A stretch of DNA of 64,000 nt from an uncultured Granulosicoccaceae bacterium (lineage in GTDB: Bacteria > Pseudomonadota > Gammaproteobacteria > Granulosicoccales > Granulosicoccaceae). The translations under genes and the position numbers were made by a program. Below, piece after piece: positions 1,060 to 33,186 of the stretch. The DNA lies in contig CALAJN010000005.1 of the NCBI GenBank assembly GCA_937922675.1, forward strand, positions 1-64,000, written 5' to 3'. Each line of letters begins with the position of its first letter. The stretch's first letter is position 1. A model generated the notes under the pieces. The model saw only the letters and a list, made by a program, of their open reading frames with translations. It did no database searches and was not told the origin of the DNA.

Positions 1060-1884
1060 TCACTCCTGCGGATCGAACGTTTCGTCAGGGTGGAAGCGAA
1101 CAACCGTGTAGGCCTTCGGGACGCCTGCTATCGTCTCGACGCGCACGTCTACGACGTACGCAAGCTCGTGCCAGCCTCGTCCAAATCGCTCGTCTCGAAT
1201 CAACATCTTTCTTTTTACTGCATCGTTGTCGAAGAGCACCTTCACTGGACGCTTGGAGATGCTCTCTATGATTGCTCGGTCACCAGTCGTTGTTCCTCTC
1301 TCGAACTTCGTCTGGTACCACGTCATCACTTTGTTCTTCTGTACCTTAGAATCAGGCTCATCTCGCTTTTCAATCTCGCGACGGATGCTATTTTGCAGCG
1401 CGTTCGCTTGCTCAGAATCCAATATGAATTGATTTATCACGGTTCCTCGGTCTGATACCATGATATTCATCTGCGCTGCGTTATCTCGCGCTACAGGATC
1501 TACGATAGAATGCAGAGCATTTAACTCCTTCTTCGACTGATCTCGGGGCGGTGCCGATAGCTTTCCGGTGAGCCAGTCAGCTGTGCTCTTTATGTAATCT
1601 ACCCATTGGGTCAAGCCACCGCCTTCCCAAAGCAATGGCACAAGCGGAAGTGACTGGGTCATCAATTCAACGACAATTGATCCCGAGCGCACCTCGCGAA
1701 TGTACAGCTCAGAAGATGCGCCCATCTCCGTAGCGGATTCGCCCTCGATGAACTTTTCATACAAAAAGCTGACGTTCAGCAACGAAAGCGTTAGGCCCGC
1801 GAGCTCAACTGGCTTCGAGTTGTTTATCGTGATTTCGAGCTTGGTGTCGAAATCAAAGCTCAAAACCGCAAAATCTTGTTCCAC
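1060..1884 (-). CDS. hypothetical protein, 274 residues, family not recognised
   Basis: A complete frame from ATG at 1884 to TGA at 1060, with no signal peptide and no clear membrane helix. The N-terminal part looks like alternating strands (VLSFDFDTKLEITINNSK). A segment near residues 65-110 (EVRSGSIVVELMTQSLPLVP, then a stretch with ADWLTGKL) is amphipathic. The C-terminal third is charged, with many K/R and D/E, and ends FHPDETFDPQE. I cannot assign a family. Its base composition is visibly more AT-rich than the genes from 2262 onward, and it abuts an insertion sequence, which together suggest horizontal acquisition. It has no operon partner in the window. Confidence 0.65.
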   Translation of the reverse strand: MEQDFAVLSFDFDTKLEITINNSKPVELAGLTLSLLNVSFLYEKFIEGESATEMGASSELYIREVRSGSIVVELMTQSLPLVPLLWEGGGLTQWVDYIKSTADWLTGKLSAPPRDQSKKELNALHSIVDPVARDNAAQMNIMVSDRGTVINQFILDSEQANALQNSIRREIEKRDEPDSKVQKNKVMTWYQTKFERGTTTGDRAIIESISKRPVKVLFDNDAVKRKMLIRDERFGRGWHELAYVVDVRVETIAGVPKAYTVVRFHPDETFDPQE

Positions 1885-2261
1885 GGTACTGATTCCTTCC
1901 AGTCGGTCTTGCGTAACTGTATATGACTTCAGCTCTCGACGTGGGATTCATGTGCGCGGTAGCCGGTGACGATGAACAACTCTTAGACCGACCCAATGCA
2001 TTCCGATATGCCTGACTCGACTGCTTTCTACTATCGCCGACGCAGTCTTCCATCACACAAGCGGATCAATGACAGTGCACAACGCCAGAAGACAGCTCCA
2101 ATATCAATGATTCGATATTTGCGTTGTTCTGACCGACTCAACATACGCTAATATCAACAGCTGTACCTGCACCAGGCGCTCGCCTGATAGCACATTTTGG
2201 TAATGCTGCACTGAAAAGGGAGACCTCCCACTGCGAGGCGGTCATTGTGGCAGCGGTCCTC
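1885..2261. other. 377-base stretch without a supported gene
   Basis: Lies upstream of the orphan gene and downstream of the M20 hydrolase end. The only frame of note is a 67-codon minus-strand frame (1853-2056) with no recognisable product, which overlaps the start of the orphan gene. A short palindrome, CAGGCG-CT-CGCCTG, near 2174-2187 could form a small hairpin but has no T-run. The promoter of the 1060-1884 gene should lie here; I cannot pick it with confidence. Confidence 0.5.
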
Positions 2262-3440
2262 TCAGGCATGAGTCGCGCCGTCTCCAAGCGCATGGTCAAC
2301 GAGTGTCAGCCAGTAACGGACGCCATAGCTGATCGCGTCATCGTTGAAGTCGTACTCCGGGTGGTGAAGCGATGCCGAGTCACCGTTGCCGATAAAGATA
2401 AATGCGCCGGGTCGTTCGTTGAGCATGTAGGAAAAGTCCTCGGCACCCATGACGGGTGGGCGGTCGCCGTCCACCTTGTCAGCGCCTGCAACAGCCTGCG
2501 CAACGTCGATACAGAAGCGGGTCTTTTCAGCGTCGTTGACCGTCGGTGGATAGCCGTCTTCGTACTCCACATGTGCGGACGCATTGAACACAGCGGCAGT
2601 GCGTTCAACAATCTCGTGTACTCGCTGTTTGCCCATCAGGCGCACCTCCTCCTCATAGGCGCGAAGCGTTCCTCGCAGGTGCACTTGCTGCGGGATCACG
2701 TTGTAGGCATCACCGTCCACGTGCAGTGTGGTCACCGATATGACCAGTGGGTCAGTCGGCCTGACGTTGCGCGAGACGATGCTCTGCAGAGCGAGCACAA
2801 TGTGGCTTGCAACGACCACGGTATCCACGCAGACGTGCGGCATTGCTGCATGCCCACCAACGCCTTCAATGCAGATATCAAACTGATCAGCGCAGGCCAT
2901 CAAGGGTCCGGGCCGGATAGCGAACTCACCGACAGCGATCCCCGGCATGTTGTGCATCCCGTACACCTCTTCTATCGCGAAGCGCTCCATCATTCCGTCA
3001 TCTACCATGGCCTTGCCACCGGCACCGCCCTCTTCGGCGGGTTGAAAAATCACGGCCACGGAGCCTGAAAAATTGCGGTTCTCAGCCAATGCACGCGCAG
3101 CGCCCAACAGCATCGCGGTGTGCCCGTCGTGGCCACAGGCGTGCATTTTTCCATCAACCTGTGATGTCCACGCCGCGCCTGAGGCTTCGATGATCGGCAG
3201 TGCGTCCATGTCGGCACGCAGACCGATACAGCGGCCGTTGTCGCCTCCCTTGATGATGCCCACCACACCTGTGCGCCCTACTCCCTCCACCACCTCGTCA
3301 ACGCCAAACTCGCGCAGCTTTTCTGCCACAAGCGCTGCGGTTCTGAGCACGTCGTAACCCAGCTCCGGGTGCTGATGAATGTCGCGGCGCCACTCGGTGA
3401 TTTCCGGTACGAGGTTGTCCAGGGCATCAGCGTCGCGCAT
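2262..3440 (-). CDS. M20D-family amidohydrolase (hippurate hydrolase / N-acyl amino acid deacylase type)
   Basis: A 392-residue cytosolic metallohydrolase expected to cleave the amide bond of N-acylated amino acids. Family signatures are present: RRDIHQHPELG near residue 18, GLRADMDALP near 73, ACGHDGHTAML with metal-ligand Cys102 and His104, the catalytic pair in QPAEEGG (Glu136/Glu137), His163 in GMHNMPG, and a C-terminal LHHPEYDFND segment that supplies the last metal ligand. Its length is normal for the family. It is divergent from the aromatic amino acid decarboxylase at 3509, with 68 bases between the starts, so both may act on related amino acid derivatives. The exact substrate is not predictable. 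Confidence 0.9.
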   Translation of the reverse strand: MRDADALDNLVPEITEWRRDIHQHPELGYDVLRTAALVAEKLREFGVDEVVEGVGRTGVVGIIKGGDNGRCIGLRADMDALPIIEASGAAWTSQVDGKMHACGHDGHTAMLLGAARALAENRNFSGSVAVIFQPAEEGGAGGKAMVDDGMMERFAIEEVYGMHNMPGIAVGEFAIRPGPLMACADQFDICIEGVGGHAAMPHVCVDTVVVASHIVLALQSIVSRNVRPTDPLVISVTTLHVDGDAYNVIPQQVHLRGTLRAYEEEVRLMGKQRVHEIVERTAAVFNASAHVEYEDGYPPTVNDAEKTRFCIDVAQAVAGADKVDGDRPPVMGAEDFSYMLNERPGAFIFIGNGDSASLHHPEYDFNDDAISYGVRYWLTLVDHALGDGATHA

Positions 3441-3466
3441 GGTTCAGTATTTCTCAGGGGTTCAGA

Positions 3467-3498
3467 TCAGGCGGGTACCATTGCTGGTATCAGCCTGA
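3467..3498. promoter_or_regulatory. imperfect inverted repeat in a divergent intergenic region
   Basis: Two 13-base arms, TCAGGCGGGTACC (3467-3479) and GGTATCAGCCTGA (3486-3498), match at 11 of 13 positions around a 6-base spacer. The repeat lies between the divergent starts at 3440 and 3509, just before the decarboxylase ribosome-binding site (AGGA near 3497). It could be an operator for both genes or a leader hairpin. The regulator is unknown. Confidence 0.4.
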
Positions 3499-3508
3499 GG
3501 AAGCACCA

Positions 3509-4921
3509 ATGGACAGCACGGAATTCGGTAGATGGTCACACGCAGCCGCTGACTGGTCAACGGGCTATCTCGAGGGCGTGGGCAAACGGCCGGTGCGATC
3601 CCGCAATGCGCCAGGCAGTCTGCTTGAGGCTTTGCCCGCAGAGCCGCCCATGGCGGCGGAGTCCATGGAGGAGATCTTTGCCGACTTCGAGCGCTTGATT
3701 CCGGGTGGTATGACTCATTGGCAGCACCCCCGCTTTTTTGCCTACTTTCCAAGCAACGCAGCACCCGCTGCCATCGTGGCCGAGCAACTGGCTGCCAGCA
3801 TGGCAGCTCAATGCATGCTCTGGCAGACTTCACCCGCTGCTACAGAGCTTGAGATTCGGATGATCGACTGGTTGCGTCAGTCGGTTGGCCTGCCCGACAC
3901 CTTCTCCGGTACCTTTCAAGACACCGCGTCCACCACAACCTTGTCTGCCGTGTTGGTGATGCGTGAGCGTGCCCTGGACTTTCGTGGCAACAGTGAAGGG
4001 CTCAGCGGTCAACCTCGCCTGCGTGTCTATGCCTCCGGGCGCACGCACAGCTCGGTCGACAAGGCGTTGTGGATTGCGGGGCTGGGTCTGGAGAATCTGG
4101 TGAAGATTCCTACCGACGAAGGCCCGCTTTTTCCGATGCAGGTGCATGAGCTTGAAGCCGCCATAGCGGCCGACCGGGCTGCAGGACATCTGCCCGCAGG
4201 CGTGGTCGTGTGTATCGGTGGCACTTCAACCGGCGCCACCGACAGTGCGCGCGAGGTCATCGCAGTGGCACGGCGCGAAGGCTTGTACACACACGTTGAT
4301 GCTGCCTGGGCGGGTTCTGCGATGATCTGCCCTGAATACAGACACCTCTGGGAAGGTGTCGAAGAGGCGGACAGCATCGTGCTCAATCCGCACAAGTGGC
4401 TGGGTAGCTCGATGGAGTGCTCGGCGCATTTTGTACGCGATCCCGAGTCGTTGGTGCGCACGCTCGCCATTCAACCGGAATACCTGAAGACACGAGGCGC
4501 AGACGGTGTGGTCAACTTCAGCGAGTGGTCTGTGCAACTGGGCCGCCGATTCCGTGCGCTTAAAGTCTGGTTTCTGATCCGTGCCTATGGCATCGAGGGA
4601 CTTCAGGCCATGATTCGCAATCATGTGGATTGGGCGCTTGCCTTGTGCGAGCGCCTGCGCAAGGAGCCGGATATCGAGATCGTGACAGAGCCTGTGCTAT
4701 CGCTGTTCAGTTTTCGCCACCACCCGCCCGGCATCGATGATCTGGACGCTCACAACCTGGCATTGATAGAGCGGATCAACAATGACGGGCGCATCTATCT
4801 CACGCAGACGCGCCACGACAGTGTTATCGCAATTCGTTTTCAGGCGGGTCAGTTTGATACCACCGAGTCAGACCTCGACATTGCGTTTGATGCAATACGC
4901 GAGCTCGCCGCCACAGACTGA
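3509..4921 (+). CDS. PLP-dependent aromatic-L-amino-acid decarboxylase family protein
   Basis: A 470-residue group II decarboxylase. It likely removes the carboxyl group of an aromatic amino acid (tryptophan, tyrosine, DOPA or a relative) to give an amine. Visible family features are HPRFFAYFPS near residue 73, QTSPAATELE near 106, SGRTHSSVDKA with the ring-stacking His180, HVDAAWAG with the pyridine-binding Asp264, and NPHKWLG with the PLP Lys296. Length is normal. The ATG at 3509 has an AGGA element 9-12 bases upstream. The partner gene on the opposite strand is an N-acyl amino acid hydrolase. Substrate choice is uncertain. Confidence 0.92.
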   Translation: MDSTEFGRWSHAAADWSTGYLEGVGKRPVRSRNAPGSLLEALPAEPPMAAESMEEIFADFERLIPGGMTHWQHPRFFAYFPSNAAPAAIVAEQLAASMAAQCMLWQTSPAATELEIRMIDWLRQSVGLPDTFSGTFQDTASTTTLSAVLVMRERALDFRGNSEGLSGQPRLRVYASGRTHSSVDKALWIAGLGLENLVKIPTDEGPLFPMQVHELEAAIAADRAAGHLPAGVVVCIGGTSTGATDSAREVIAVARREGLYTHVDAAWAGSAMICPEYRHLWEGVEEADSIVLNPHKWLGSSMECSAHFVRDPESLVRTLAIQPEYLKTRGADGVVNFSEWSVQLGRRFRALKVWFLIRAYGIEGLQAMIRNHVDWALALCERLRKEPDIEIVTEPVLSLFSFRHHPPGIDDLDAHNLALIERINNDGRIYLTQTRHDSVIAIRFQAGQFDTTESDLDIAFDAIRELAATD

Positions 4922-17828: not shown

Positions 17829-20429
17829 ATGTCTGCCAACCATCCCGCCTCGGGCTCAGACCCGAAAGACGATAGTGCCGGTCGCTTCGACGAAACCCTG
17901 ACGGCCAGCGGTACGCCACGTCCCGGCTGGTCCTTCGTGCTCGATCGCCTCGACGCTCTGGGTGAACAAGGTCTTGCCTCGCGTCGTGCGGAAGTCGCCC
18001 GACAGCTGCGCGCCAACGGCATCGGGTTCAACACGCCAGTACCCGCGATGTCGCAAGGCTCGGACCCCGAAGATCGCAAGGCACGTCCCTGGCCGTTGGA
18101 TGTTGTACCGATGGTGATCGAGTCAGAGGATTGGGCCGTGCTGGAAGCAGGACTCAAGCAGCGACATCGTCTGATGGAAGCCTTGCTCGCCGATATCTAC
18201 GGCGAGCAAGGCTTGCTGGCCGAGCGTCTCCTGCCCCCGGCACTTGTGTACTCGCACCCGGGGTATCTGCGCGACGCAGTCGGCGTTGCCGCCTGCCAGC
18301 AATTGCCCTTGTATGGCATGGATGTATCGCGTGCACCATCGGGCGCCTGGTATGTCGCCGACGATCTGGCCGAATTCCCGGAGGGTCTAGGTTACACGCT
18401 TGAGAATCGCCTCGTGCTCTCTCGAGCCTTGCCTCAGCTGTTTCGCGAAGGACGTGTGCGGCGGCTTGCCGGGTACTTTCGAGCGCTGCAAACACTGGTG
18501 ATAGACAGCATTGATCGCGATTCGCGTTGCGTGCTGCTTGGACGCGGCGCGGATGATCCGCATCACTTCGAGCTCGCCTGGTTGTCCAAGTATCTTGGTT
18601 ACACACTCGTTGAACTGGGGGATCTGACGGTGCGCGGCAATCGCGTGTTTCTGCGAACCGTATCCGGCTTGCAGCGGGTGCACGTCATGTTGCGCTTTGT
18701 GCCGGACTCAGCCGTTGATCCGCTGACCAGTGAAGATCATGGCGGGGCGGGACTGCCAGGACTGATGCGCGCGGTTGCCGAAGGTACGGTACGACTGATC
18801 AATCCTCCAGGTGGTGCCGTACTCGGCAACCCCGCTCTCAATGTGTACCTGCCTGAGCTGTGCAAACACCTGCTCGGCGAAACCCTGTCGCTCACGGGCG
18901 CCCCGACCTACTGGCTCGGTGATGCGAGTCAACGCGAGCATGTCAGCGAGCGTGTCAACGAGCTGTTGATCAGGGATGTCAGAACTCACGGAGCACTGAT
19001 TGATCCTGAACTACTCGATCAAGCCGCACACACACACTTGCTGCAACTCATGCACGCGGAGCCAGAGCGCTTTGTCGCTCAGGAACGTGTTGATCGTTCA
19101 GTTGTGCCGGTTCGCGATGCTGATGGCGTACGTCAACGTCAGCTGACGCTGAGGCTGCATGCGGTAAGGAAGTCGAGTGACGCTGACTCGTCCGAGACCT
19201 CTGTGGTCATGGCGGGAGGGCTCGGGTTGCTGGATAACGATCGCGGTGGCCGACGACAGCACTTTGATCAGTTGGACGGTAGCAAGGACGTCTGGGTGCT
19301 ATCGGATAAACCCGTGGGATACGACACCCTGTTCTCGAAAGGCGACTCGGAGGCAGACTTTGCGCTGGTCGCAGGTGAGCTGCCAAGTCGTGTTGCCGAA
19401 AACCTGTTCTGGCTCGGTCGCAATGCTGAACGCGTGGAGTTCACCGCACGGCTGCTTCGAAGCATCATCCTCGAGATCCAGGAGGAGGACAGCCCGGAAG
19501 CCAACCAGGAACCCTCGACCACGCTTGTCGCGCTGCTCAGAGCAACAACTGCCGCTACCGGCGCGCTACCGGGATTTACCGGGCGCGGCTCAGCGCAACG
19601 TCTGCGCCGCCCGGATCGCGAGCTGCAGGCTTTGTTCAGCAATGCCGATCATGTCGGGTCGCTTGCCAACGCGCTACGCCAGCTCGACTTCAGCGCAGGC
19701 GCTGTGCGCGAGCGCATATCGCCCGATCAACTTCTGGTACTCAATGACCTGTCAGCCGTCGGGCAGGAGCTTGAACAAATGCGCTTTGGAGCCGCTCGAG
19801 ACCCGGCTGTTCTGGAAGCGAGAGCCTCATTACTGCAGACGGTGCTCGGTCGTGTAGCTGCACTGACTGGATTGATGCACGAAAACCTCACCAACGGTGA
19901 AGGTTGGCATTTCATGATGCTGGGTCGTCGCGTCGCGCGTGCAGGGCTCGGTGCTCGTACGCTCAGTCGCTTGCTCGAAAAGGACCTGCATGATAGTCAG
20001 GTGCTTGAAGCAACCTTGCAATTGTTTGACAGCGTGATGACGTATCGCTCGCGCTATCGCACCCGCGTCGAGCCACATTTCACGGTCTTTCTATTGGTAC
20101 TGGATGAAGCCAACCCACGCTCGCTGGCTTTCCAGTTCCAACGGATAGACGAGTTTGTCGGCAAGCTGCCCGGTAACGGTGGCGCCCACCGTCCCAACAA
20201 TGCCTTGTCACGGCTGGCGGCAGCGGGACTCAGCCGTGTGCGACTTGCCGAGGCGTCGGCCCTGATACATACCAACCGCCCGCAACGACAGAGCCTGGGC
20301 ACGTTTCTCGAGATTCTTGAAAAACTGCCTGATGAGTTGGCCCTTGAGCTCTCTGCTCGCTATTTCACACACGTGGACACAAGGAGCGACTTTGGCGTTG
20401 GCAGTGTGACCCCACTGGATACACCATGA
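17829..20429 (+). CDS. circularly permuted ATP-grasp / Alpha-E fusion protein, divergent paralogue
   Basis: An 866-residue cytosolic protein. Residues about 80-500 correspond to the circularly permuted type 2 ATP-grasp domain (older DUF404/DUF407), and residues about 519-850 to the Alpha-E helical domain (DUF403; [20 protein letters not shown]). Compared with the paralogue at 21360, several presumed ATP-site positions are lost. The lysine motif VVKP plus ESGGYG becomes [13 protein letters not shown] (379-391), RIDVLYRR becomes RVHVMLRF (283-290), and LEDNLR becomes VADDLAE (176-182). Catalysis by this copy is doubtful; it may act as a partner subunit. Its stop overlaps the transglutaminase start by 4 bases (ATGA). 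Confidence 0.85.
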
Positions 20430-21343
20430 GGCTCAAGGTCAGCCACAGCACGCGCGTTGCCTATGCAGAGCCGGTGAGCCATGCAGTGAGCCGACTTTGC
20501 CTTCAGCCACGCAACACCTTGCAGCAGCATGTTGTCGCACATCACCTGACCCTGTACCCCGAGCCGGATGCGGTGGTACGCGCCGAGGATCGTTACGGCA
20601 ATGCGATTGTTCAATATGATCTTGCCGTACCTCATGAGCAGGCGGAGACCAGATCAACGTCTCTGATTGAAACCTACCCTGCACCGCCGCTTCCGCAGGA
20701 CCTTTCGCTCGATGAACTGCACAAGCAGATCCAGCAATCGACGGGTCACGGGATGCTGCTCGCAGAGGATTTTTTGCTGCGCTCGGTGTATGTGCCCACC
20801 GGCATCGATACATCGGCATTGATAGCAGAATTAGGGCTTTCGCCACCAGCGAGTCAAGGTGTGATAGCGCTCGCGCAGCAACTCACTCATCACATTTTTA
20901 CCGCCTTCGAGTATGACCCTGGTTATTCAAATATTGCCACGCCGCTGGCTGATGTCATGCAAGCCCGACGTGGCGTATGTCAGGACTTTGCGCACGCAGC
21001 GATTGCCGTGTGTCGTGATCTTGGGATACCTGCTCGCTATGTCAGCGGCTACCTCGAAACAGTCCCACCACCCGGAGTCGAAAAGCTCAAGGGTGCCGAT
21101 GCCTCGCATGCCTGGTTCTCTGTTTATGCAGGTACGGCTGGCTGGTTCGATTTTGACCCCACCAACAACAAACGCCCCGATGAGCAATACGTGACGACCG
21201 CCTGGGGACGGGACTATCGCGACGTCGCGCCGATACAGGGTGTGGTGTATGGCGGCGGCAGTCAAGCTCTGCAGGTGGCTGTCGATGTCGATCGTGCGCC
21301 CGTACCCGGCAATAGCCCAGGCGTTCGGGAGCTCTTTCCTTGA
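20426..21343 (+). CDS. transglutaminase-like cysteine peptidase/amidase with bacterial transglutaminase N-domain
   Basis: A 305-residue protein with no signal peptide. The N-terminal third is the beta-rich bacterial transglutaminase N-domain (VSHSTRVAYAEPVSHAVSRL). The core has the Cys-His-Asp triad: Cys185 in RRGVCQDFAH, His228 in DASHAWFSVY, and Asp244 in WFDFDPTNN. Such proteins hydrolyse or transfer amide bonds. The gene starts within the stop of the ATP-grasp paralogue and is followed by the second one 17 bases on, so all are probably made together. The physiological substrate of this conserved gene neighbourhood is, to my knowledge, not established. Confidence 0.88.
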   Translation: MRLKVSHSTRVAYAEPVSHAVSRLCLQPRNTLQQHVVAHHLTLYPEPDAVVRAEDRYGNAIVQYDLAVPHEQAETRSTSLIETYPAPPLPQDLSLDELHKQIQQSTGHGMLLAEDFLLRSVYVPTGIDTSALIAELGLSPPASQGVIALAQQLTHHIFTAFEYDPGYSNIATPLADVMQARRGVCQDFAHAAIAVCRDLGIPARYVSGYLETVPPPGVEKLKGADASHAWFSVYAGTAGWFDFDPTNNKRPDEQYVTTAWGRDYRDVAPIQGVVYGGGSQALQVAVDVDRAPVPGNSPGVRELFP

Positions 21344-21359
21344 TCAGTATCGCACCGCT

Positions 21360-23876
21360 ATGAAAGATTATACAAGCCCGGCACTTGATGAGCTCTTTGG
21401 CGAAGATGGCCAGGCGCGACCAGCGGCTGCCGAATTGATCAAGTTCATGAGCGAACTCGGTGCCAGTGGCCGGGCCGAACGACGCGAAGAGGCCGAGCGT
21501 GCCATCAGGCAGATGGGGATCACGTTCACGGTCTACTCCAGTGAGGGCAATATCGATCGCGAGTGGCCCTTCGATATCATTCCCCGCATCATTGATGCGC
21601 GCGAATGGCGTGGCGTTGAACGCGGACTCAAGCAACGCCTCAAGGCCTTGAACCTGTTCATCGATGATCTTTATCACAAACGCGAGATCATCAATGACGG
21701 CGTTGTACCGTCAGACATCATCGACACATCCGCTCACTATCTCGATGCCTGTCGCGGTGTCTGTCCTCCACATGCGGTGTGGGCGCATATCTGTGGCTCG
21801 GATCTCGTGCGTGACAAGGACGGCACACTACGCGCACTTGAAGACAACTTGCGTGTGCCTTCCGGAGTCTCCTACATGCTGGAGAACCGCGAGGTCATGA
21901 AGCGCACCTTGCCTGAGGTGTTTGGTGCCTGTCATGTAAGGCCGGTTGACAACTACCCTGGCATGTTGCAACGCATGTTGCGCTCATTGAGCCAGGAGAG
22001 TGAACCGGTACTCGCAGTGCTCACGCCGGGCATCTACAACAGTGCCTATTTTGAGCACGTATACCTTGCGCAGCAGATCGGTGCAGAGCTGGTCGAGGGT
22101 CGCGATCTTGTGGTCACCGACGACGATGAGCTCTGCGTACGCAATGTCAACGGACTGCAACGTATCGATGTGCTCTACCGCCGCGTCGATGATGCGTTCA
22201 TCGATCCCGAGGTCTTCATCGAGGATTCCATGCTCGGTGTGCGCGGCCTGATGCGCGCCTGGAAGGCAGGTCGTGTGGCCATCGCCAATGCGCCGGGAGC
22301 TGGCGTAGCAGACGACAAGGTTGTCTACTCCTTCGTACCCGAGATCATCAAGTACTACCTCAACGAGGAACCCGTACTCGGCAACGTCGACACTTATCGT
22401 TGCGCAGAACCCGATCACCGCGAATACGTGCTGAAGCATCTGGATGAACTGGTGGTCAAGCCTGCCAATGAATCCGGTGGTTATGGTTTGCTCATCGGCC
22501 CACACGCCACTCCCGAGGAGCGCGCCGCGACAGCCCGCGCCATCGAGGCTGAACCGCGCAACTGGATCGCGCAACCCACGCTGGCAATCTCCACAGCCCC
22601 TACCCTGACCGATTCGGGTGTTGCTGCCAGGCATGTGGATCTACGCCCCTTCGTGTTGCAGGGTGAGGCGCTGGCTGTGTCAACGGGTGGGCTGACGCGT
22701 GTTGCCCTGCGCGAGGGCTCTCTGGTGGTCAACTCCTCCCAGGGAGGTGGTAGCAAAGACACCTGGATCGTGGATCTGGATGACGGCGCGGAGGGTGACT
22801 CTCTGGATCGTGAGCCCGACAGTGTTCCCGCCTCGCGTGCGCCTGCAAGTGGCAGTGAACGGCCCGCCTTTGTGCGATCTGCGTCAGTGTCGCGGCTGCT
22901 CGCCCGCAATGCAGAAAACCTGTACTGGCTCGGTCGCTATCTGGAACGTGCTGAATGCACCGCACGACTCATCGATACGCACGCAAGCCTGATGATGGAT
23001 GTCGGTTATGACCGACGTGGTATCGGATGGTCATCCCTGATCACGATCACCGGTTGCGAGGAAGCCTTTGAAAAGACCGGCGCTGTCAACAATGAAGCGG
23101 GTATCTGCCATTTCCTCATTGCTGAGACCGAAAACCCGGGCTCGCTCTTGAACATAGCCGTCGCCATGCACGAAAACCTGCGCAGCACGCGTGAGTTCTT
23201 GCCAAGCAGCGTGTACGAGTCCTTCAGCGCCTTGTGTCGCAGTATGCGTGCCGGTGCACCACAGGCGTCACACGCCCCTCAGCGAACGCGTTTTCTTGCC
23301 GATGTCGAGCAAGGCCTTTTGGCCCTTGCAGGCTCCATCGATGGCAGCCTGAGTCGCGGGACCGGCTGGTTGGTCATGCGTATGGGGGTGCATCTCGAGC
23401 GCGCAGACATGACCTCACGGGTGCTCGATGTTCGTTCCCAGATGCTCATCGATAGCGGAGAACATCTTGCACAGCCCATCACCGAACGTGAGTGGATATC
23501 GGTGCTGTCCTCGCTACGGGCGCTGCGCATGTATCGCTTGCACGTGAGTCGCCCGATCGATGGCGCAGAAGTCCTGAGCTATCTGCTCGATGACCCGGAC
23601 CTGCCCCGCGCGTGGCGATATTGCGTGGACAGGCTCAGAGCCTGTGTGCGACAGCTGGGACGCAGCGATGTGCCGAACGTCGCTCTGGAGGCCTTGATGC
23701 AGAAAATCGACTCTGCCGACCTTGTGTCGCTGGCCGACGACCGCGTCGCGTTACACGCCTTTATCGACGATCTGCAGCTGGGTTTGTACGCCGTTGGAGA
23801 TGCCATCACCAAAACCTACTTTCCCCCACCACAAGCACTCACCGAAACGGAGAGCGGCGAGAGCCGCGACGCATGA
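21360..23876 (+). CDS. circularly permuted ATP-grasp / Alpha-E fusion protein, canonical paralogue
   Basis: An 838-residue protein with start ATG at 21360; the frame is open upstream inside the transglutaminase gene. Residues about 1-475 form the circularly permuted ATP-grasp domain with a complete motif set: ALEDNLRVPSG (159-169), LTPGIYNSAYFEH (221-233), GLQRIDVLYRR (265-275), VVKP with Lys367, ESGGYGLLIGP (371-381), and HVDLRPFV (425-432). The Alpha-E domain (NAENLYWLGRYLERAECTA) follows from about 512. ATP-grasp enzymes of this type are predicted peptide or amide ligases. The stop overlaps the next start (ATGA at 23873). In many genomes the two domains are separate genes; here they are fused. 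Confidence 0.9.
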   Translation: MKDYTSPALDELFGEDGQARPAAAELIKFMSELGASGRAERREEAERAIRQMGITFTVYSSEGNIDREWPFDIIPRIIDAREWRGVERGLKQRLKALNLFIDDLYHKREIINDGVVPSDIIDTSAHYLDACRGVCPPHAVWAHICGSDLVRDKDGTLRALEDNLRVPSGVSYMLENREVMKRTLPEVFGACHVRPVDNYPGMLQRMLRSLSQESEPVLAVLTPGIYNSAYFEHVYLAQQIGAELVEGRDLVVTDDDELCVRNVNGLQRIDVLYRRVDDAFIDPEVFIEDSMLGVRGLMRAWKAGRVAIANAPGAGVADDKVVYSFVPEIIKYYLNEEPVLGNVDTYRCAEPDHREYVLKHLDELVVKPANESGGYGLLIGPHATPEERAATARAIEAEPRNWIAQPTLAISTAPTLTDSGVAARHVDLRPFVLQGEALAVSTGGLTRVALREGSLVVNSSQGGGSKDTWIVDLDDGAEGDSLDREPDSVPASRAPASGSERPAFVRSASVSRLLARNAENLYWLGRYLERAECTARLIDTHASLMMDVGYDRRGIGWSSLITITGCEEAFEKTGAVNNEAGICHFLIAETENPGSLLNIAVAMHENLRSTREFLPSSVYESFSALCRSMRAGAPQASHAPQRTRFLADVEQGLLALAGSIDGSLSRGTGWLVMRMGVHLERADMTSRVLDVRSQMLIDSGEHLAQPITEREWISVLSSLRALRMYRLHVSRPIDGAEVLSYLLDDPDLPRAWRYCVDRLRACVRQLGRSDVPNVALEALMQKIDSADLVSLADDRVALHAFIDDLQLGLYAVGDAITKTYFPPPQALTETESGESRDA

Positions 23877-26800: not shown

Positions 26801-27205
26801 GTGGTCGGTGTGCGCTTTCGCGCCTGGCAACCACCTTTTTGCCTGCACCCTGATCTTCCCGTGGATGCGCCGCTGATCTTCGATATCGTTGATACCTGGA
26901 ACAACCGCAGCCTTGGGGGCTGCGCGTATCATGTTTCCGACCCCGGTGGACGCAGCTACGAGGAAGTGCCGGTCAATGCCAATGTGGCAGAAGCTCGAAG
27001 ACTGGCGCGCTTTGAAGAGGACAGGCATACCGTTGAGGCAGCGCGGATAGAAACGCCGGTCACAACCACAGGCGTGCGCTTTGAATCAACTGAACCTGTT
27101 GCAGTTGTCAGACAGGTTGAGGCACTGCACACCTCGGCAGAGTTTCCACATACCGCTGACCTTCGCAGGCATCGCTCGCAGCATGCAAATGCGACAACGC
27201 GTTGA
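23873..27205 (+). CDS. transglutaminase-like protein fused to DUF2126
   Basis: A 1110-residue protein. Residues 1-120 are the bacterial transglutaminase N-domain (VTRYQYDEPVTLGPHVIRLR). Residues about 150-260 form the core with Cys180 (SGSCRDSGW), His229 (DLHAWTEVY) and Asp245 (VGLDPTSG). From about 300 to the end lies DUF2126, with TMGGEPTFVS, WYPGEPTPRWA, GTGGGNHVTLGG and ELRAFEMAPHARM. The last 45 or so residues are less conserved in character. The long upstream frame (from 23612) is ignored because the ATG at 23873 matches the family start and overlaps the previous stop. Its 3' end overlaps ureD by 23 bases, which links this module to the urease operon. Confidence 0.9.
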   Translation: MSIRVALDHVTRYQYDEPVTLGPHVIRLRPAPHTRTPIISYSLDIKPAGHFINWQQDPFGNWLARLIFPEPVTELSVAVDLVCELTVINPFDFFVEDYAENFPFTYSADLQRELAPYLDVEPAGPRLAAWLDEHRPVNQNINDALVAINQAVQNDIDYRVRLEPGVQTSEDTLSLASGSCRDSGWLLVEIMRHYGLAARFVSGYLVQLVPDIKAVDGPAGPAADFTDLHAWTEVYLPGAGWVGLDPTSGLFAGEGHIPLACTPLPSSAAPISGAASAPATQFDFHNRVSRFQERPRVTQPYTDATWQQVLALGESVDRRLDSAGLTLTMGGEPTFVSSEDFEAPEWNEAALGEHKLERATALHSELLKAFAPHGVPTFAQGKWYPGEPTPRWALVCHWRDDERPLLKNADSIALPGDELPPADETDAMRLMDAVIDTLGVAGDGRRALYEDPLHALHLESLLPEAESLAELNLADSRSRRKLVATLERGLDRPVGWMLPLECDAGVWQSGVWPQRRSEVFLVPGDSPAGLRLPLDSLPEDESSDAEARAMEEDTFEPVTALPDIDAKAASKADVAEALTRSTLCIECREDRLYAFLPPLRSAAAWVELVQAVSQAAASTGLRPVLEGYEPPHDMRLRSFRITPDPGVIEVNIHPSRTFSELVSRTETLYEAARRCQLTAEKFMVDGRHTGTGGGNHVTLGGPSPAQSPFLQRPELLGSLITYWQHHPSLSYLFSGVFVGPTSQAPRVDEARLESLFELELALSRLPSGSEQKPWLVDRLLRNLLIDLTGNTHRAEICIDKLYSPAGPTGRLGLVELRAFEMAPHARMAIVQALLVRALIVRFAESPYSADLVRWGTELHDRFMLPHYLEADLADIARDLKDHDLPLPAEWFNAFTEFRFPVYGTRVVDGVTLELRAAIEPWHVLGEEASAAGMARYVDSSMERIQVKVTGMVEGRHEVHCNGSRLPLRSTGTAGEFVVGVRFRAWQPPFCLHPDLPVDAPLIFDIVDTWNNRSLGGCAYHVSDPGGRSYEEVPVNANVAEARRLARFEEDRHTVEAARIETPVTTTGVRFESTEPVAVVRQVEALHTSAEFPHTADLRRHRSQHANATTR

Positions 27206-28031
27206 CTCACAAGCGTTTGTCGGTGCGCGATACCGTAACGGTAAAAGTGTGCTGGCAGAGCTGGATCAACGTGGCGGCGCCAAGGTGCGTCTACCCGCCA
27301 CCGCTGTTGATGGGCTTGATGCGGTACTGATCAATACCGCTGGCGGGCTGACAGGGGGTGATCGGGTGCAATGGCGATGTCGCGCTCACGCCAGGGCACG
27401 ACTCCGGGTAAGCACTGCTGCCTCCGAAAAGGCCTATCGCAGTCATGGCCCTTCGGGTCAGCAACACGCGCTCCTTCAGGCCGAGTCCGGTGCGCACCTG
27501 AGTTGGCTGCCGCAGGAGACCATTGTCTTTGAAGGCGCATCACTGGAGCGCAGCTTGAGCGTTGAGCTGGCGGCGGATGCGAGCTGCCTCATTTGCGAGG
27601 CGCTGGTCTTCGGCCGACAGGCCATGGGTGAGCGTCTGAATGACGCTTGTATCAAAGACACCTGGCACATTCATCGTGACGGGAAGTTATTGCACAAGGA
27701 AGCGCTGCAGATCGATGCTTCTGTGGATCTATGTCCGTGCGGTAGTGTCGCGGCCTTCGGCCTGGGTAGCGAACTGGCTGCCATGGCTACGGTGCTGCTT
27801 TGCGATGCACGCGATTCGGCGTCGCTGGAGTTGCTCGCGGATCGCCTGCGAGCGATCGATACGGCTACAGGCACGCTTGCAGGCAAGGCCACAGTCGGCG
27901 TCAGCGTACTCCCGGGCAGGTTGCTGGTGCGGCTGCTCGCAGAAGACGGCTGGCAACTACGCCAGCTTTTGGTCCCCCTGTTGACTCAGCTTCAATCAGG
28001 AGATGACGTGCCGAGGGTGTGGCACGTTTGA
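27183..28031 (+). CDS. ureD: urease accessory protein UreD
   Basis: A 282-residue cytosolic chaperone that scaffolds nickel insertion into urease together with UreF and UreG. Visible family segments are NTAGGLTGGDRVQW near residue 50, TAASEKAYRSHG, LSWLPQETIVFEGASLER, LVFGRQAMGE, and the C-terminal SVLPGRLLVRLLAEDG. The frame is open from 27081, but the ATG at 27183 (or 27189) restores the normal N-terminus. It overlaps the DUF2126 gene by 23 bases, so the two are likely translationally linked. A hairpin follows its stop. Confidence 0.9.
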   Translation: MQMRQRVDSQAFVGARYRNGKSVLAELDQRGGAKVRLPATAVDGLDAVLINTAGGLTGGDRVQWRCRAHARARLRVSTAASEKAYRSHGPSGQQHALLQAESGAHLSWLPQETIVFEGASLERSLSVELAADASCLICEALVFGRQAMGERLNDACIKDTWHIHRDGKLLHKEALQIDASVDLCPCGSVAAFGLGSELAAMATVLLCDARDSASLELLADRLRAIDTATGTLAGKATVGVSVLPGRLLVRLLAEDGWQLRQLLVPLLTQLQSGDDVPRVWHV

Positions 28032-28037
28032 GTGCAT

Positions 28038-28056
28038 TCGCACCCTTTCGGTGCGA
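28038..28056 (+). other. intercistronic hairpin between ureD and ureA
   Basis: Arms TCGCACC (28038-28044) and GGTGCGA (28050-28056) pair perfectly around a 5-base loop. There is no T-run, so it is more likely an RNA-processing or stability element than a terminator. The 109-base gap also could hold a separate ureABC promoter, but I found no convincing one. Confidence 0.45.
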
Positions 28057-28140
28057 TCGTCTTGCGCAGGGGGCTTTGTCTCTGAATCGAGTTTGCGCGG
28101 TCTGATAATCTCGACAGGTTCGCCTTGATCTGAACTCATC

Positions 28141-28443
28141 ATGCAACTCACGCCCAGAGAAAAAGACAAGCTGCTCATCGCCATGGCAGCCGAAGTCGCG
28201 CGCAAGAGACTCGCGCGCGGCGTCAAGTTGAACCACCCCGAGGCCATCGCCCTGATCAGTGATGCCGTTGTCGAAGGTGCACGTGACGGGCGCAGTGTCG
28301 CTGAACTGATGAGCACCGGGGCAACGATTGTCACGCGTGATCAGGTCATGGAGGGCATCGCCGAGATGATTCCCGAGATTCAGATCGAAGCCACGTTTCC
28401 CGATGGCACCAAACTCGTCACCGTCCATCAACCCATCCGCTAA
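28141..28443 (+). CDS. ureA: urease gamma subunit
   Basis: A 100-residue small structural subunit of urease. It starts with [20 protein letters not shown] and contains [20 protein letters not shown] and [20 protein letters not shown], near-invariant in the family. Ten bases separate it from ureB. Separate gamma and beta genes are the usual proteobacterial arrangement. Confidence 0.97.
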
Positions 28444-28452
28444 CGAGCTGCC

Positions 28453-28767
28453 ATGATTCCCGGAGAAGTCCTGGTCACCCAGACCGGTGAGAGCGATATC
28501 GAATTGAATGCGGGTCGCAAGACTCTCACCCTGCACGTGCAGAATACGGGTGATCGTCCGGTACAAGTCGGCAGCCACTACCACTTTGCAGAGGCCAATC
28601 CCGGCCTGTCCTTTGATCGCGATGCCGCCCGCGGATTCAGACTCGATATTGCTGCAGGTACCGCCGTTCGATTCGAGCCGGGCCAGGGTCGCGACGTATC
28701 GCTGGTGTCCTTTGCAGGCGCCAGGGTCGTTACAGGCTTTCGCGGCGACGTGATGGGAGCGCTCTGA
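28453..28767 (+). CDS. ureB: urease beta subunit
   Basis: A 104-residue structural subunit. Motifs are [45 protein letters not shown], and the end [13 protein letters not shown]. Its final base is shared with the ureC start (TGATG), so the subunits are translated in coupling. Length is normal. Confidence 0.97.
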
Positions 28768-30479
28768 TGGCAACACGTATCTCGCGTCAGGCCTATGCCG
28801 ACATGTACGGCCCCACCACCGGTGACCGCGTGCGACTCGCTGATACCGAGCTCTTCATCGAGGTGGAAAAGGACTTCACTACCTACGGCGAAGAGGTCAA
28901 GTTTGGTGGCGGCAAGGTAATCCGTGACGGCATGGGTCAATCGCAGGCCACGCGCGCAGAAGGTGCGGTTGACACAGTCATCACCAATGCCTTGATTGTT
29001 GATGTCACGGGTATCTACAAGGCGGACGTCGGGCTGCGAGACGGGCGTATTGCAGGTATTGGCAAGGCCGGCAATCCGGATGTACAACCCGATGTCACCA
29101 TCGTCGTCGGGCCGGGTACCGAAGCGATAGCTGGCGAGGGCAAGATCCTGACCGCAGGTGGGTTCGACAGCCACATTCACTGGATTTGCCCGCAACAGAT
29201 TGACGACGCTCTCATGTCGGGTGTCACCACCATGCTCGGCGGTGGTACGGGTCCTGCCCACGGCACGCTCGCTACAACCTGCACACCCGGCCCCTGGCAC
29301 CTCGCTCGCATGTTGCAGGCAGCGGATGGCTTGCCGATGAATCTTGCCTTCTCTGGCAAGGGCAATGCCTCACGCCCGGACGCGCTGGAGGAAATGGTCA
29401 AGGCCGGCGCGTGTGCGCTGAAGCTACACGAAGACTGGGGTACCACACCGGCGGCCATTGATTGCTGTTTGAGCGTTGCCGACACGATGGATGTGCAGGT
29501 CATGATCCATACCGACACGCTTAACGAGTCAGGCTTTGTCGAGTCCACTGTGGCTGCCATCGCCGGGCGCACCATCCACGCCTTTCATACAGAAGGAGCG
29601 GGAGGCGGACATGCGCCCGATATCATCAAGGTGTGTGGTGAGGCCAATGTTCTGCCCTCCTCGACCAACCCGACGCGACCCTATACGGTCAACACCATTG
29701 ATGAACACCTCGACATGCTCATGGTCTGTCATCACCTGGATGCCAATATCCCAGAGGACATTGCCTTCGCCGAGAGCCGTATCCGAAAGGAAACCATCGC
29801 CGCCGAGGACATACTGCACGACATGGGCGCTTTCTCCATCATTGCCTCGGACAGCCAGGCGATGGGACGTGTTGGAGAGGTCCTGATTCGTACCTGGCAG
29901 ACGGCAGACAAGATGAAACGCCAACGCGGCCGGCTGTCGGAGGAATCAGGAGACAACGACAACTTTCGAGTACGTCGCTATATCGCCAAGTACACCATCA
30001 ACCCAGCCATAGCGCATGGCATGAGCAGCGAGATCGGCAGCATAGAAGTGGGCAAGCGCGCTGATCTGTGTCTTTGGCACCCGGCCTTCTTTGGCGCCAA
30101 GCCCGATATGGTCTTGCTCGGTGGCAGTATTGTTGCCGCACCCATGGGAGATCCCAATGCGTCCATACCCACACCGCAGCCGGTGCACTACCGACACATG
30201 TTCGGGGCACTCGGTGGGGCGTTGGCAGCAAGTTCTGCAACCTTCGTATCGCAAGCGGCCATCGACAACAATGTGCGCGAGTCGCTGGGCCTTGCCAAGT
30301 CGTTGGTCGCTGTGTCCAACACGCGCGGTGGCATTGGAAAATCAGCCATGCAACTCAATGACGCACAACCCGAAATCGAGGTGGATCCGGAAACCTACGA
30401 TGTACGCGCCAATGGCGAGCTGCTTACCTGTGAGCCTGCCGAGGTGCTGCCACTCGCACAACGTTACTTTCTGTTCTGA
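28767..30479 (+). CDS. ureC: urease alpha (catalytic) subunit
   Basis: A 570-residue nickel hydrolase that converts urea to ammonia and carbamate. The active site is complete: His136 and His138 (SHIHWICP), carbamylated Lys219 ([10 protein letters not shown]), His248 (MIHTDTLNE), His274 ([12 protein letters not shown]), the mobile flap MVCHHLD with catalytic Cys321 and His322/323, and nickel ligand Asp362 ([11 protein letters not shown]). Numbering is offset by two from the Klebsiella enzyme as I recall it. No sign of decay is visible. It adjoins ureE directly. Confidence 0.98.
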
Positions 30480-31013
30480 ATGATGGATAAGCTCGTTTGC
30501 AATGAGGTTGCCGAGCCTTTCGGCAATGACTCAGGCGACGCCAACACAATCGCCGCCAGCGATACGATCACTCTGGATGAGACCGATCGTCACCGCAGGC
30601 GCCTGATGCTGACCAGCGACGGTGGTATCCGCTTTCTGCTGGATCTGGCCCAGGCACGGCAACTCTCCGATGGTGACAGGCTTGTGTTGTCTGACGGGCG
30701 CGAAGTGGAAGTCATCAGCAAGTCGGAATCGCTCTACGAGGTACGGGGCACGAACGCTCACGCCCTGCTGCAATTGGCCTGGCATATCGGTAACCGGCAC
30801 CTTGCCACCGAAATACACAACGACCATCTGCGCATCCGGGCGGATGCGGTCATTCGCGACATGCTGACCGGGCTGGGTGCGCACGTACAGGACATCAAGG
30901 CGGGCTTTCATCCTGAAAGTGGTGCCTATGGCGACAAGCATGTCGGGCACACACACGACCATGATCACGCGAACGGCCACGACCACGCGCACGACCATGG
31001 TCACTCCCACTGA
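30480..31013 (+). CDS. ureE: urease accessory nickel metallochaperone UreE
   Basis: A 177-residue protein that delivers nickel to the UreDFG complex. After a short leader, the N-terminal domain (RRRLMLTSDGGIRFLLDL) and the C-terminal metal-binding domain (LAWHIGNRHLATEIHNDHL) are clear. The C-terminal 25 residues hold about eleven histidines alternating with Asp, Ala and Gly, a nickel-storage tail like that of Klebsiella UreE. The gene begins one base after the ureC stop. A start three bases later is also possible. Confidence 0.95.
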   Translation: MMDKLVCNEVAEPFGNDSGDANTIAASDTITLDETDRHRRRLMLTSDGGIRFLLDLAQARQLSDGDRLVLSDGREVEVISKSESLYEVRGTNAHALLQLAWHIGNRHLATEIHNDHLRIRADAVIRDMLTGLGAHVQDIKAGFHPESGAYGDKHVGHTHDHDHANGHDHAHDHGHSH

Positions 31014-31015
31014 CG

Positions 31016-31699
31016 GTGCCTGAGCCAGGACCTTGCACGGCGAGCGTCGAGCATGCGCAATTACTGCACGCCTGGTTCTCGCCCGCCATGCCAACCGGTG
31101 CTTATGCCTACAGTCACGGGTTGGAGGCAGCCATTGCCTGCAATCAAGTCCACGATGCCAGCACACTCGGGGCGTGGGTCACTCGCGTATTGGAGCGAGG
31201 GAGTGGTCGAAATGACGCCTGCCTCATGGCCTGCGCCTGGCGCGCTGAACACGCAAGCACAACCGCCGAGCTCGACGACATTGACGGTGTCGCGCGCGCT
31301 TTGGTGGCAAGTGCTGAACGACTGCAAGAAGGACTGTCTCAAGGGCGCTCCTTCACCCGCGCAGCGAGCACCTGGGTTGACACAACCCTGGCTGACGAAC
31401 GGCGCATGCTGTCAGTGACCAGCGGAGCACTTGCGGCCCGCGCCGGGCTGCCTTTGACGCCTGTGCTGGTGGCGTCGGCGCAAGCCTTCGTGAGCAATCT
31501 GATCTGGATTGGCGCGCGCCTTGTGCCGGTGGGCCAGAGCGAGGCCTTGTTCGTGATCTCGGGCCTGCTTCCTCGTATTCAAGAGGTTGCCAACGCGGCC
31601 AGTGACATGTCGATCGGTGATCTGGGTAGCGCTACACCACTCGCTGATATTGCCTCCATGCGTCATCAACATTTGCCGTCTCGTGTGTGTCTCAGCTGA
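31016..31699 (+). CDS. ureF: urease accessory protein UreF
   Basis: A 227-residue helical protein that binds UreD and UreG in the urease maturation complex. Family motifs are LLHAWFSPAMPTGAYAYSHG and LEAAIACNQ near the start, and MSIGDLGSATPLADIASMRH at the end. It starts with GTG at 31016, two bases after the ureE stop. No closer ATG gives the full N-terminus. Confidence 0.92.
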   Translation: MPEPGPCTASVEHAQLLHAWFSPAMPTGAYAYSHGLEAAIACNQVHDASTLGAWVTRVLERGSGRNDACLMACAWRAEHASTTAELDDIDGVARALVASAERLQEGLSQGRSFTRAASTWVDTTLADERRMLSVTSGALAARAGLPLTPVLVASAQAFVSNLIWIGARLVPVGQSEALFVISGLLPRIQEVANAASDMSIGDLGSATPLADIASMRHQHLPSRVCLS

Positions 31700-31753
31700 C
31701 CCTTGCAAGCAGTTGCGCGTAGACTCAACACGGCCAATCCAACACTACAGAGT

Positions 31754-32407
31754 ATGCCCAACACCGCTACCAACTCCTCGACCAACGGTCCATTGCGCGT
31801 CGGCATAGGCGGTCCGGTAGGATCAGGAAAAACCACGTTGACGGCACGCCTGTGTGAGCGGTTGCGAGAGCATTGCTCTGTCGGGGTGGTGACCAACGAC
31901 ATCTACACGCGCGAGGATGCCGAGGCTCTGGTACGTCTGCAGGCACTGTCGGCGGACCGCATCGTGGGTGTAGAGACCGGTGGTTGCCCGCACACGGCGA
32001 TCCGTGAGGATGCCTCGATCAACTTGCGCGCAATCGAAACCCTGCGCGAACGCCATGCCGACCTCGATATCATTCTGATCGAGTCCGGGGGTGACAACCT
32101 GGCTGCGACCTTCTCCCCGGAGCTGGCCGATGTGTCGATCTATGTCATTTCGGTCTGCCAGGGTGAGGACATCCCGCGCAAGGGTGGGCCTGCAATCACT
32201 CGCTCCGACTTGCTCGTCATCAACAAGACAGACCTTGCGCCCCACGTTGATGCCGATCTTGACTCCATGCGTGCCGATGCGCAGCGTGCACGACCCGACA
32301 GGCCCACGGTATTTACCAATTTGCGTGATGACGACGGCACTCAAGCCCTGGTTGACTTCCTCTGTGAGGTGGGTGGCATGAATGTGGACACCCGAGCGAC
32401 AGCCTGA
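31754..32407 (+). CDS. ureG: urease accessory GTPase UreG
   Basis: A 217-residue GTPase that drives nickel insertion. It has the P-loop [25 protein letters not shown], the nickel-binding [33 protein letters not shown], and the guanine-specific NKTDLAPH. I choose ATG at 31754; the frame is open from a TTG at 31703. Its stop shares a base with the next ABC transporter ATPase (TGATG), an unusual direct link between urease and an amino acid importer. Confidence 0.95.
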
Positions 32408-33186
32408 TGGACACCCCGGTTGCCACTGCTCTGACCCTGTCGGTAAGCGACATCCACAAGTCCTTCGGCGACACGGCAGTACTCAAGGGTATTTCGCTGA
32501 GCGCGCGCGAGGGCGAGGTCATCACGATCATTGGCAGCTCGGGATCGGGCAAGAGCACCCTGCTCCGCTGCATCAATTTTCTTGAAACACCCGATAGCGG
32601 ATCAGTGACCCTTGGCCAGCACACCCTCTCACTTGATGCCAATCACCGTGGGTTTGACCGTGCGGATCGGGCGACGGTCAGGGCCTTGAGACAACAGCTC
32701 GGCATGGTCTTCCAGGGGTTCAACCTGTGGTCCCACCTGTCCGTTGTCGACAACATCACGGAGGGGCCGGTGCGCGTGCTCGGCATGGATCGCAAGACTG
32801 CACGTGACGAGGCCATGCAGCTGCTTGAACAGGTTGGCATGGAGACCCGAGCTGATGACTACCCGAGTGCCCTCTCCGGTGGTCAGCAGCAGCGAGTTGC
32901 CATTGCCCGGGCTCTGGCGATGAAGCCGCGAGTGCTCTTGTTTGATGAGCCTACCTCGGCGCTGGATCCCGAGCTGGTCGGCGAGGTTCTCAAGGTCATG
33001 CGTGATCTGGCTCGCACCGGCAGAACCATGATCGTGGTCACACACGAGATGGGCTTTGCCCGCGAAGTGTCTCATCGTGTCATTTTTCTGCACCAGGGCA
33101 GGATCGAGGAGGAAGGACCGCCAGGTGCGGTTTTTGGCGACCCGCAATCAACCCGCTGTCGTCAGTTCCTGTCCAGTGTGTTGTAA
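32407..33186 (+). CDS. polar amino acid ABC transporter ATP-binding protein (GlnQ/HisP type)
   Basis: A 259-residue ATPase. Walker A is [18 protein letters not shown], the Q-loop is [13 protein letters not shown], the signature is [15 protein letters not shown], and Walker B is [19 protein letters not shown]. These are diagnostic of the polar amino acid (PAAT) group. It shares one base with ureG and precedes a binding protein and two permeases, so the set is complete. The substrate is not certain. It may be a basic or nitrogen-rich amino acid, given the urease context, but that is inference. Confidence 0.93.

Follow-up and report, generated by a model that had tools for sequence, protein, structure and literature searches.

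The window analysed here, a 64,000-nucleotide stretch of contig CALAJN010000005.1 of an uncultured Granulosicoccaceae bacterium, carries on its + strand a cluster in the order P0001, the transglutaminase-like gene TG1, P0002 and a transglutaminase/DUF2126 gene, with urease genes next. P0001 and P0002 both join a circularly permuted (CP) ATP-grasp domain to an Alpha-E domain, and P0001 is best read, with a probability of about 0.6 for the statement as a whole, as a pseudo-ligase serving its transglutaminase as a binding or adaptor subunit. The firmest part of this statement, judged from the residues at its catalytic positions, is that P0001 is very unlikely to be able to run normal Mg-ATP ligation. 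The loss of the E-x-N motif, the linker Lys and the glycine loop in proteins of the P0001 type is an old, widespread and selected state, and because the altered form has these properties and is nearly always found beside a transglutaminase gene, P0001 is probably non-catalytic. The data show residue loss, conservation, fold, linkage and co-occurrence; from them we infer its loss of activity, its adaptor role and a role in nitrogen metabolism in this organism.

Catalytic residues changed and kept in P0001

The P0001 and P0002 types align over the whole ATP-grasp domain (463 columns, E 2.9e-122 in a profile-profile alignment). Published catalytic features of ATP-grasp enzymes (PMC4431377) were taken as a template and mapped onto both proteins: positively charged residues, typically Lys, in the linker and on strand 2, a glycine-containing loop, an acidic side chain and the E-x-N motif. 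By this mapping, P0002 carries all the template features. P0001 lacks E-x-N (E161 and N163 of P0002 are replaced by D178 and L180), the positive linker residue before the RAGNYA domain (K320 replaced by P335) and the glycine loop between strands 2 and 3, which is shortened and has lost its Gly pattern (ESGGYG to THGAL). At the end of RAGNYA strand 2, Lys367 became Arg382, so that a positive charge survives at this position, and the acidic residue of strand 4 of the kinase-like domain is kept as D165 (D148 of P0002), an assignment made from order and spacing.

The first-pass annotation had located a loss of nucleotide-binding motifs at 18963-19002 in one of the two paralogues. The location is right, as positions 18963-19001 encode P0001 residues 379-391, which the profile-profile alignment sets opposite VVKPANESGGYG, and the loss is wider than had been claimed. 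The glycine loop named there is indeed gone, whereas Lys367, also named as lost, is an Arg with the charge retained, and the strongest losses are those of E-x-N, of linker Lys320 and of the loop. The exchange of RIDVLYRR for RVHVMLRF and of the LEDNLR block for VADDLAE, the retained LENR block and the presence of Alpha-E in both proteins (Pfam PF04168, 205 bits in P0001 against a curated cut-off of 20.8, and 240 bits in P0002) all agree with that description. The check it had proposed, a profile alignment that might place the missing Lys and Gly loop elsewhere in P0001, did not find them elsewhere. Specifically, no Lys occurs between residues 346 and 448, hence the strand-2 Lys has not moved nearby, and the Gly pairs after residue 290 (305, 328, 463-466, 473) all fall outside the loop; a relocated Lys or Gly loop is ruled out by the alignment together with this listing of Lys and Gly pairs.

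The E. coli gss and ygiC proteins show E-x-N, the linker Lys and the strand-2 Lys in the same order as P0002. A sequence-only profile alignment to gss and ygiC by hhalign is weak (E 0.83 global, 0.13 local), and the residue names therefore rest on order, spacing and fold match. For the ligand residues of GspS, presumably R316, D318, E330, N332, K498 and K533, the letters at those places were checked.

Beyond the ATP-grasp domain, the second E-R motif of the P0001 Alpha-E reads A-R (positions 19935-19940, residues 703-704), while the first is intact. An Ala at this Glu position occurs in two of the 101 rows labelled as fused by frame length, one of which is the window; two of these 101 rows (L036:12460 and L130:817) are in fact of the stand-alone type.

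Fold and selection

The changes in P0001 left its fold in place. P0001 matches CP_ATPgrasp_2 (PF14403) with 353 bits (curated cut-off 32) over profile positions 1-370 of 374, and its AlphaFold2 model (predicted local distance difference test, pLDDT, 85.5; predicted template modelling score, pTM, 0.82) superposes on 3n6x with Z 39.9, a root-mean-square deviation of 3.6, 441 aligned residues and 28% identity. The P0001 model resembles glutathione, glutathionylspermidine and trypanothione synthetases with Z 20-24, and the P0002 model likewise matches 3n6x and these synthetases; the latter model is of lower overall quality (pLDDT 69.5, pTM 0.59), with the ATP-grasp domain modelled well and Alpha-E poorly. 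The Alpha-E part of the P0001 model matches alternative complex III and cytochrome bd with Z 8-10, which is in the range of helical bundles and was left unused. That one of the two paralogues lost its motifs selectively, as first proposed, while its fold stayed intact is supported by the alignment, by the match to 3n6x and by the motif counts given below (E-x-N absent in 98/98 proteins of one type and present in 54/54 of the other).

That P0001 is simply a duplicate being lost is highly improbable. The ratio of nonsynonymous to synonymous substitution rates (dN/dS) of its ATP-grasp domain is 0.036-0.052 in four unsaturated close pairs of its clade, compared with 0.029-0.060 for P0002 in the same four pairs; strong purifying selection acts on the altered domain in these comparisons. 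These ranges leave out pairs with saturated synonymous rates (dS), two for the N-domain of P0001 and one for P0002, as well as the window's own nearest pair, that with L036, which is near saturation (dS about 2) and gives 0.126 for P0001 and 0.094 for P0002. Further evidence against decay comes from the length of the open frames across the clade, the conserved core and the wide distribution, and on dN/dS and wide conservation we reject decay of a recent duplicate. Remnants do occur: in the same-genus genome G019, the fused gene contains a stop, is cut inside Alpha-E and continues, in the same frame, with the last part of the DUF2126 gene. This cluster remnant (contig C44, L144, about 30777-32732) includes a 510-residue frame made of Alpha-E positions 1-173 followed by DUF2126 positions 622-826. 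G019 holds no further PF14403, Alpha-E or DUF2126 match, and the same-genus genomes G005, G009 and G021 have no match to any of the three.

Distribution of the loss across the family

The generality of the loss was assessed in an alignment of 152 distinct sequences. Of these, 54 belong to the P0002 type, and 75 and 23 are fused proteins from outside and from within the clade of the window, respectively. They derive from 176 rows, from which a frame of L018 and another of the broken L019 were discarded and in which identical sequences were merged; L051, ended by a contig edge and labelled stand-alone by length, is counted as fused. The fused-type loci come from a search with patterns of the clade of the window (the best 80 of 414 matches, in 79 loci), so that distant fused types are perhaps under-sampled, and the sequences are related, so that the counts are not independent events.

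E and N occur together in 54/54 proteins of the P0002 type, in 0/75 of the other fused proteins (2/75 keep one of the two) and in 0/23 of the clade of the window, a contrast beyond what chance would give. The linker Lys follows the same pattern (54/54, 0/75 and 0/23, in the same order of groups) and so does the loop Gly pair 373-374 (54/54, 1/75, 0/23). Other positions were altered to different extents: the strand-2 Lys is found in 54/54, 59/75 and 1/23, and the Arg pair 274-275 in 54/54, 65/75 and 0/23, while the last-strand K-D is common to all (53/54, one row of the active type being cut short, 74/75 and 23/23). R289 and R442 are each kept in 23/23 of the clade of the window, and at 43 positions a single residue is common to all three groups, each time in 90% or more of the members of each group. 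The simplest order of events would be that the metal site, the linker Lys and the loop were lost first in the whole fused subfamily and that the further losses came later in the Granulosicoccus-like clade of the window. In one distant, long-branch fused protein outside this clade, L025 (G036, 1201-3711), the strand-2 Lys and the greater part of the loop are missing as well (WVIRHVDGTL).

Named records of the fused type include members of Granulosicoccaceae, Thiotrichales, Chromatiaceae, Planctomycetes, Verrucomicrobia, Acidobacteria and Desulfatibacillum. E-x-N is absent from the fused-type proteins of all 20 regions with fused-type matches that were examined for active fused proteins elsewhere (four identical to sequences already in the set), and such active fused proteins were rejected on this result.

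Two old subfamilies and two separate fusions

Both domain trees rule out a recent local duplication as the origin of the P0001/P0002 pair. Clade separation was read from the splits of the tree: in the ATP-grasp tree, a split with a bipartition support of 1.0 and a branch of 0.98 sets the P0002 type apart, and the P0001 clade of the window has a support of 1.0 and a branch of 0.80. In the Alpha-E tree, the Alpha-E of P0002 and that of L036 fall inside the stand-alone Alpha-E clade (support 1.0) and that of P0001 falls outside. As the domain trees place their Alpha-E parts apart, P0001 is the old fusion and P0002 a recent look-alike. In the sampled set, an active-type ATP-grasp fused to the neighbouring Alpha-E is found only in the small branch of the window (P0002 and L036:12460-15024), and the other active-type loci compared carry ATP-grasp and Alpha-E as two genes. 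The fusion in P0002 is a second, independent and recent joining of the same two domains.

Genomic partners of the P0001 type

In its genomic neighbourhood, P0001 is tied more closely to the transglutaminase gene than to any other, the active-type gene included. A transglutaminase match on the same strand and within 600 bases downstream was scored as a neighbour, and among the 71 of 79 loci with enough sequence for this test, 68 carry one directly downstream of the fused gene. The Cys, His and Asp triad is kept in 90/90 aligned TG1-type transglutaminases and in 51/51 transglutaminase/DUF2126 proteins. Of the 35 fused-type loci whose flanks exceed 7.4 kb on each side, 22 also contain an active-type gene.

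These counts bear on a reading in which P0001 directly contacts the active ligase P0002 as its scaffold or allosteric partner, which we regard as possible but distinctly less probable. The folds of the two proteins are related, both genes share one cluster in the window and likewise in 18 loci of the clade, the active type coming after the fused gene, and no fused-type genome examined clearly lacks an active type. Specifically, all 15 genomes checked (from 13 loci without an active type and three without a transglutaminase, L053 excepted) carry one, as do, among the matches listed, 23/23 genomes with a fused row, two of which are apparently shared with the former set and three of which (G116, G181 and G256) are classed as fused by frame length and score only; in G291, the active type is split in two pieces on two contigs. 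On the other hand, the active type is frequently present without its fused counterpart (among the matches listed, some two thirds of the matching genomes have a single one), and the transglutaminase is the tighter neighbour. The first-pass view of an active subunit paired with a pseudo-enzyme scaffold is partly supported, in that one protein is altered and the other has the full set of residues. Its picture of a pair calls for revision: the two belong to old subfamilies (support 1.0) and did not arise by local duplication, and the transglutaminase gene is the closer genomic partner of P0001.

Related systems and points weighed against an adaptor

The nearest described relative is 3n6x, the stand-alone CP-ATP-grasp of Alpha-E/transglutaminase (and Anbu) operons (COG2308), which shares fold, family and kinds of neighbours with P0001 (E 3.8e-50 by phmmer). 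The stand-alone type differs in keeping every template residue (54/54), whereas P0001 is without most of them and is fused to Alpha-E. Eukaryotic-type glutathione synthetase, bacterial GspS and YgiC have a similar fold (Z 24.1 to 3kak, 23.9 to 7uk8 and 22.7 to 2iob), but identity is about 8-12% and their catalytic residues are gone from P0001. No description of an inactive paralogue of this kind was found in the titles and abstract openings of the papers listed, a search outside which Iyer et al. 2009 lies; among them, TTLL12 (tubulin tyrosine ligase like 12) is the only match that pairs "ATP-grasp" with "pseudoenzyme".

In the Anbu operon of Yersinia bercovieri, the ATP-grasp protein was seen to release phosphate from ATP (PMC6376114), and we take this protein to be of the P0002 type, judging from the description of the operon rather than from its sequence. 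Passages of the same paper describe separate ATP-grasp and alphaE genes in this operon, cite strong Anbu expression under nitrogen starvation and note that the roles proposed for these operons were without experimental confirmation at the time. Passages on other organisms point to nitrogen as well. In Burkholderia cenocepacia, I35_5080-83 (DUF404/407, DUF403 and two transglutaminase proteins) change by log2 -6.0 to -9.4 in an ntrC mutant, in a table that also holds urease genes (PMC5491218). In Pseudomonas putida, levels on nitrate are about 4 log2 units higher than on ammonium for both PP_2688 (circularly permuted ATP-grasp) and PP_2685 (proteasome beta type) (PMC8050072), and in marine metagenomes these domains associate with urea domains (PMC3597751).

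Several observations count against an adaptor without ATP chemistry. Pull-downs with Anbu as bait gave no specific interactions among the Y. bercovieri operon proteins, according to passages of PMC6376114, and no P0001-type protein is specified in the passages of the four papers just cited. No transglutaminase is adjacent in three of the 71 loci (L048, L053, L055), and a simple consensus scan found no sigma-54 site near the cluster. Lastly, Arg occupies the strand-2 position in 19/23 proteins of the clade of the window and in 12/75 other fused proteins, and Asp165 is kept in 23/23 and 67/75, respectively; because these and other residues are kept, P0001 might bind nucleotide or phosphate in another way.

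This last point leads to an alternative, likewise less probable than the main reading, in which P0001 would still bind ATP or some other phosphorylated ligand with no catalysis by metal, or would carry out another reaction, by means of Arg382, Asp165, Arg289, Arg442 and the K-D-x-W block. The full conservation of D165, R289, R442 and K-D in the clade would fit such a role, and so would the replacement of the metal Asn (the P0002 N163 column) by Arg in 68/75 fused proteins outside the clade of the window, which looks as if the metal site had been re-used. The R2K/CDC123 clade, from which the linker Lys and the loop motif are missing too, is a precedent, as the authors who described it consider most of its members active (PMC4431377). 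R2K proteins, however, mostly keep acidic-x-Asn, with one family having E-x-G-D in its place, and gained a Lys/Arg in the loop that is thought to compensate (PMC4431377), whereas the P0001 type has neither the motif nor a shared basic residue in the loop.

Gene cluster and its surroundings

The genes of the cluster and the altered or retained segments of P0001 are collected in the table. Stop and start codons overlap in the sequence ATGA at two junctions, between P0001 and TG1 (20426-20429) and between P0002 and the transglutaminase/DUF2126 gene (23873-23876), and no CP_ATPgrasp_2/Alpha-E genes other than P0001 and P0002 are found across the genome assembly. A complete-looking urease set occupies 27189-32404 (UreD, gamma, beta, alpha, UreE, UreF and a UreG-type protein of the cobW family), followed by an ATP-binding cassette transporter ATPase (32368-33183). 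No Anbu gene was found in the cluster, and the sole PF00227 match in the genome is a 197-residue frame on another contig (C14), perhaps HslV; as the only proteasome-family match sits elsewhere, the cluster is not an Anbu operon.

Table. Positions, in window numbering, of the cluster genes and of the diagnostic segments of P0001.
Feature	Positions	Strand	Basis
P0001: pseudo CP-ATP-grasp (residues ~20-495, putative) and Alpha-E (518-846), 866 aa	17829..20429	+	Pfam PF14403 353 bits, PF04168 205 bits
D-D-L (residues 178-180) at the active-type E-x-N metal motif (E161-D162-N163)	18360..18368	+	alignment column counts
Phe290 at active-type Arg275 (YRR to LRF)	18696..18698	+	alignment column counts
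Pro335 at active-type linker Lys320 (DDK to GNP)	18831..18833	+	alignment column counts
Altered strand-2 Lys / Gly loop segment (K367 to R382; ESGGYG to THGAL)	18963..19001	+	alignment counts, profile alignment
K-D-V-W block kept (K486, D487, W489), common to both types	19284..19295	+	alignment column counts
TG1, transglutaminase-like gene; Cys185, His228, Asp244	20426..21343	+	Pfam PF08379 and PF01841
P0002: active-type CP-ATP-grasp, all template residues, fused to neighbouring Alpha-E, 838 aa	21360..23876	+	PF14403 527 bits, trees
Transglutaminase-like and DUF2126 protein, 1110 aa	23873..27205	+	Pfam PF09899 1143 bits, PF08379, PF01841

Proposed mechanism and significance

In the preferred reading, that of a pseudo-ligase serving its transglutaminase, P0001 would retain the circularly permuted ATP-grasp fold of the glutathione/glutathionylspermidine synthetase kind without its usual Mg-ATP acyl-phosphate chemistry, and the kept part of the cleft, together with the helical Alpha-E domain, would hold a peptide or amide substrate. 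P0001 would work with the transglutaminase-like protein made right after it, as the ATGA overlap suggests, while the ATP-driven step would be carried out by the active-type ligase (here P0002) with its Alpha-E and the second transglutaminase/DUF2126 protein. The whole set probably has its role in the metabolism of peptides or amides when nitrogen is limiting, in keeping with its location just before the urease genes.

A bolder extension, which we advance as conjecture, is that a subfamily of CP-ATP-grasp/Alpha-E pseudo-ligases spread over several phyla may have traded the use of ATP for the recognition of transglutaminase substrates, acting as the reader of what its sister writes in a peptide modification of nitrogen stress. 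Proteins that have all the catalytic residues and proteins that do not thus come under one family name, "circularly permuted ATP-grasp type 2". Moreover, if P0001 is a pseudo-ligase tied to a transglutaminase, proteins of its type could serve as bait for the substrate of the system.
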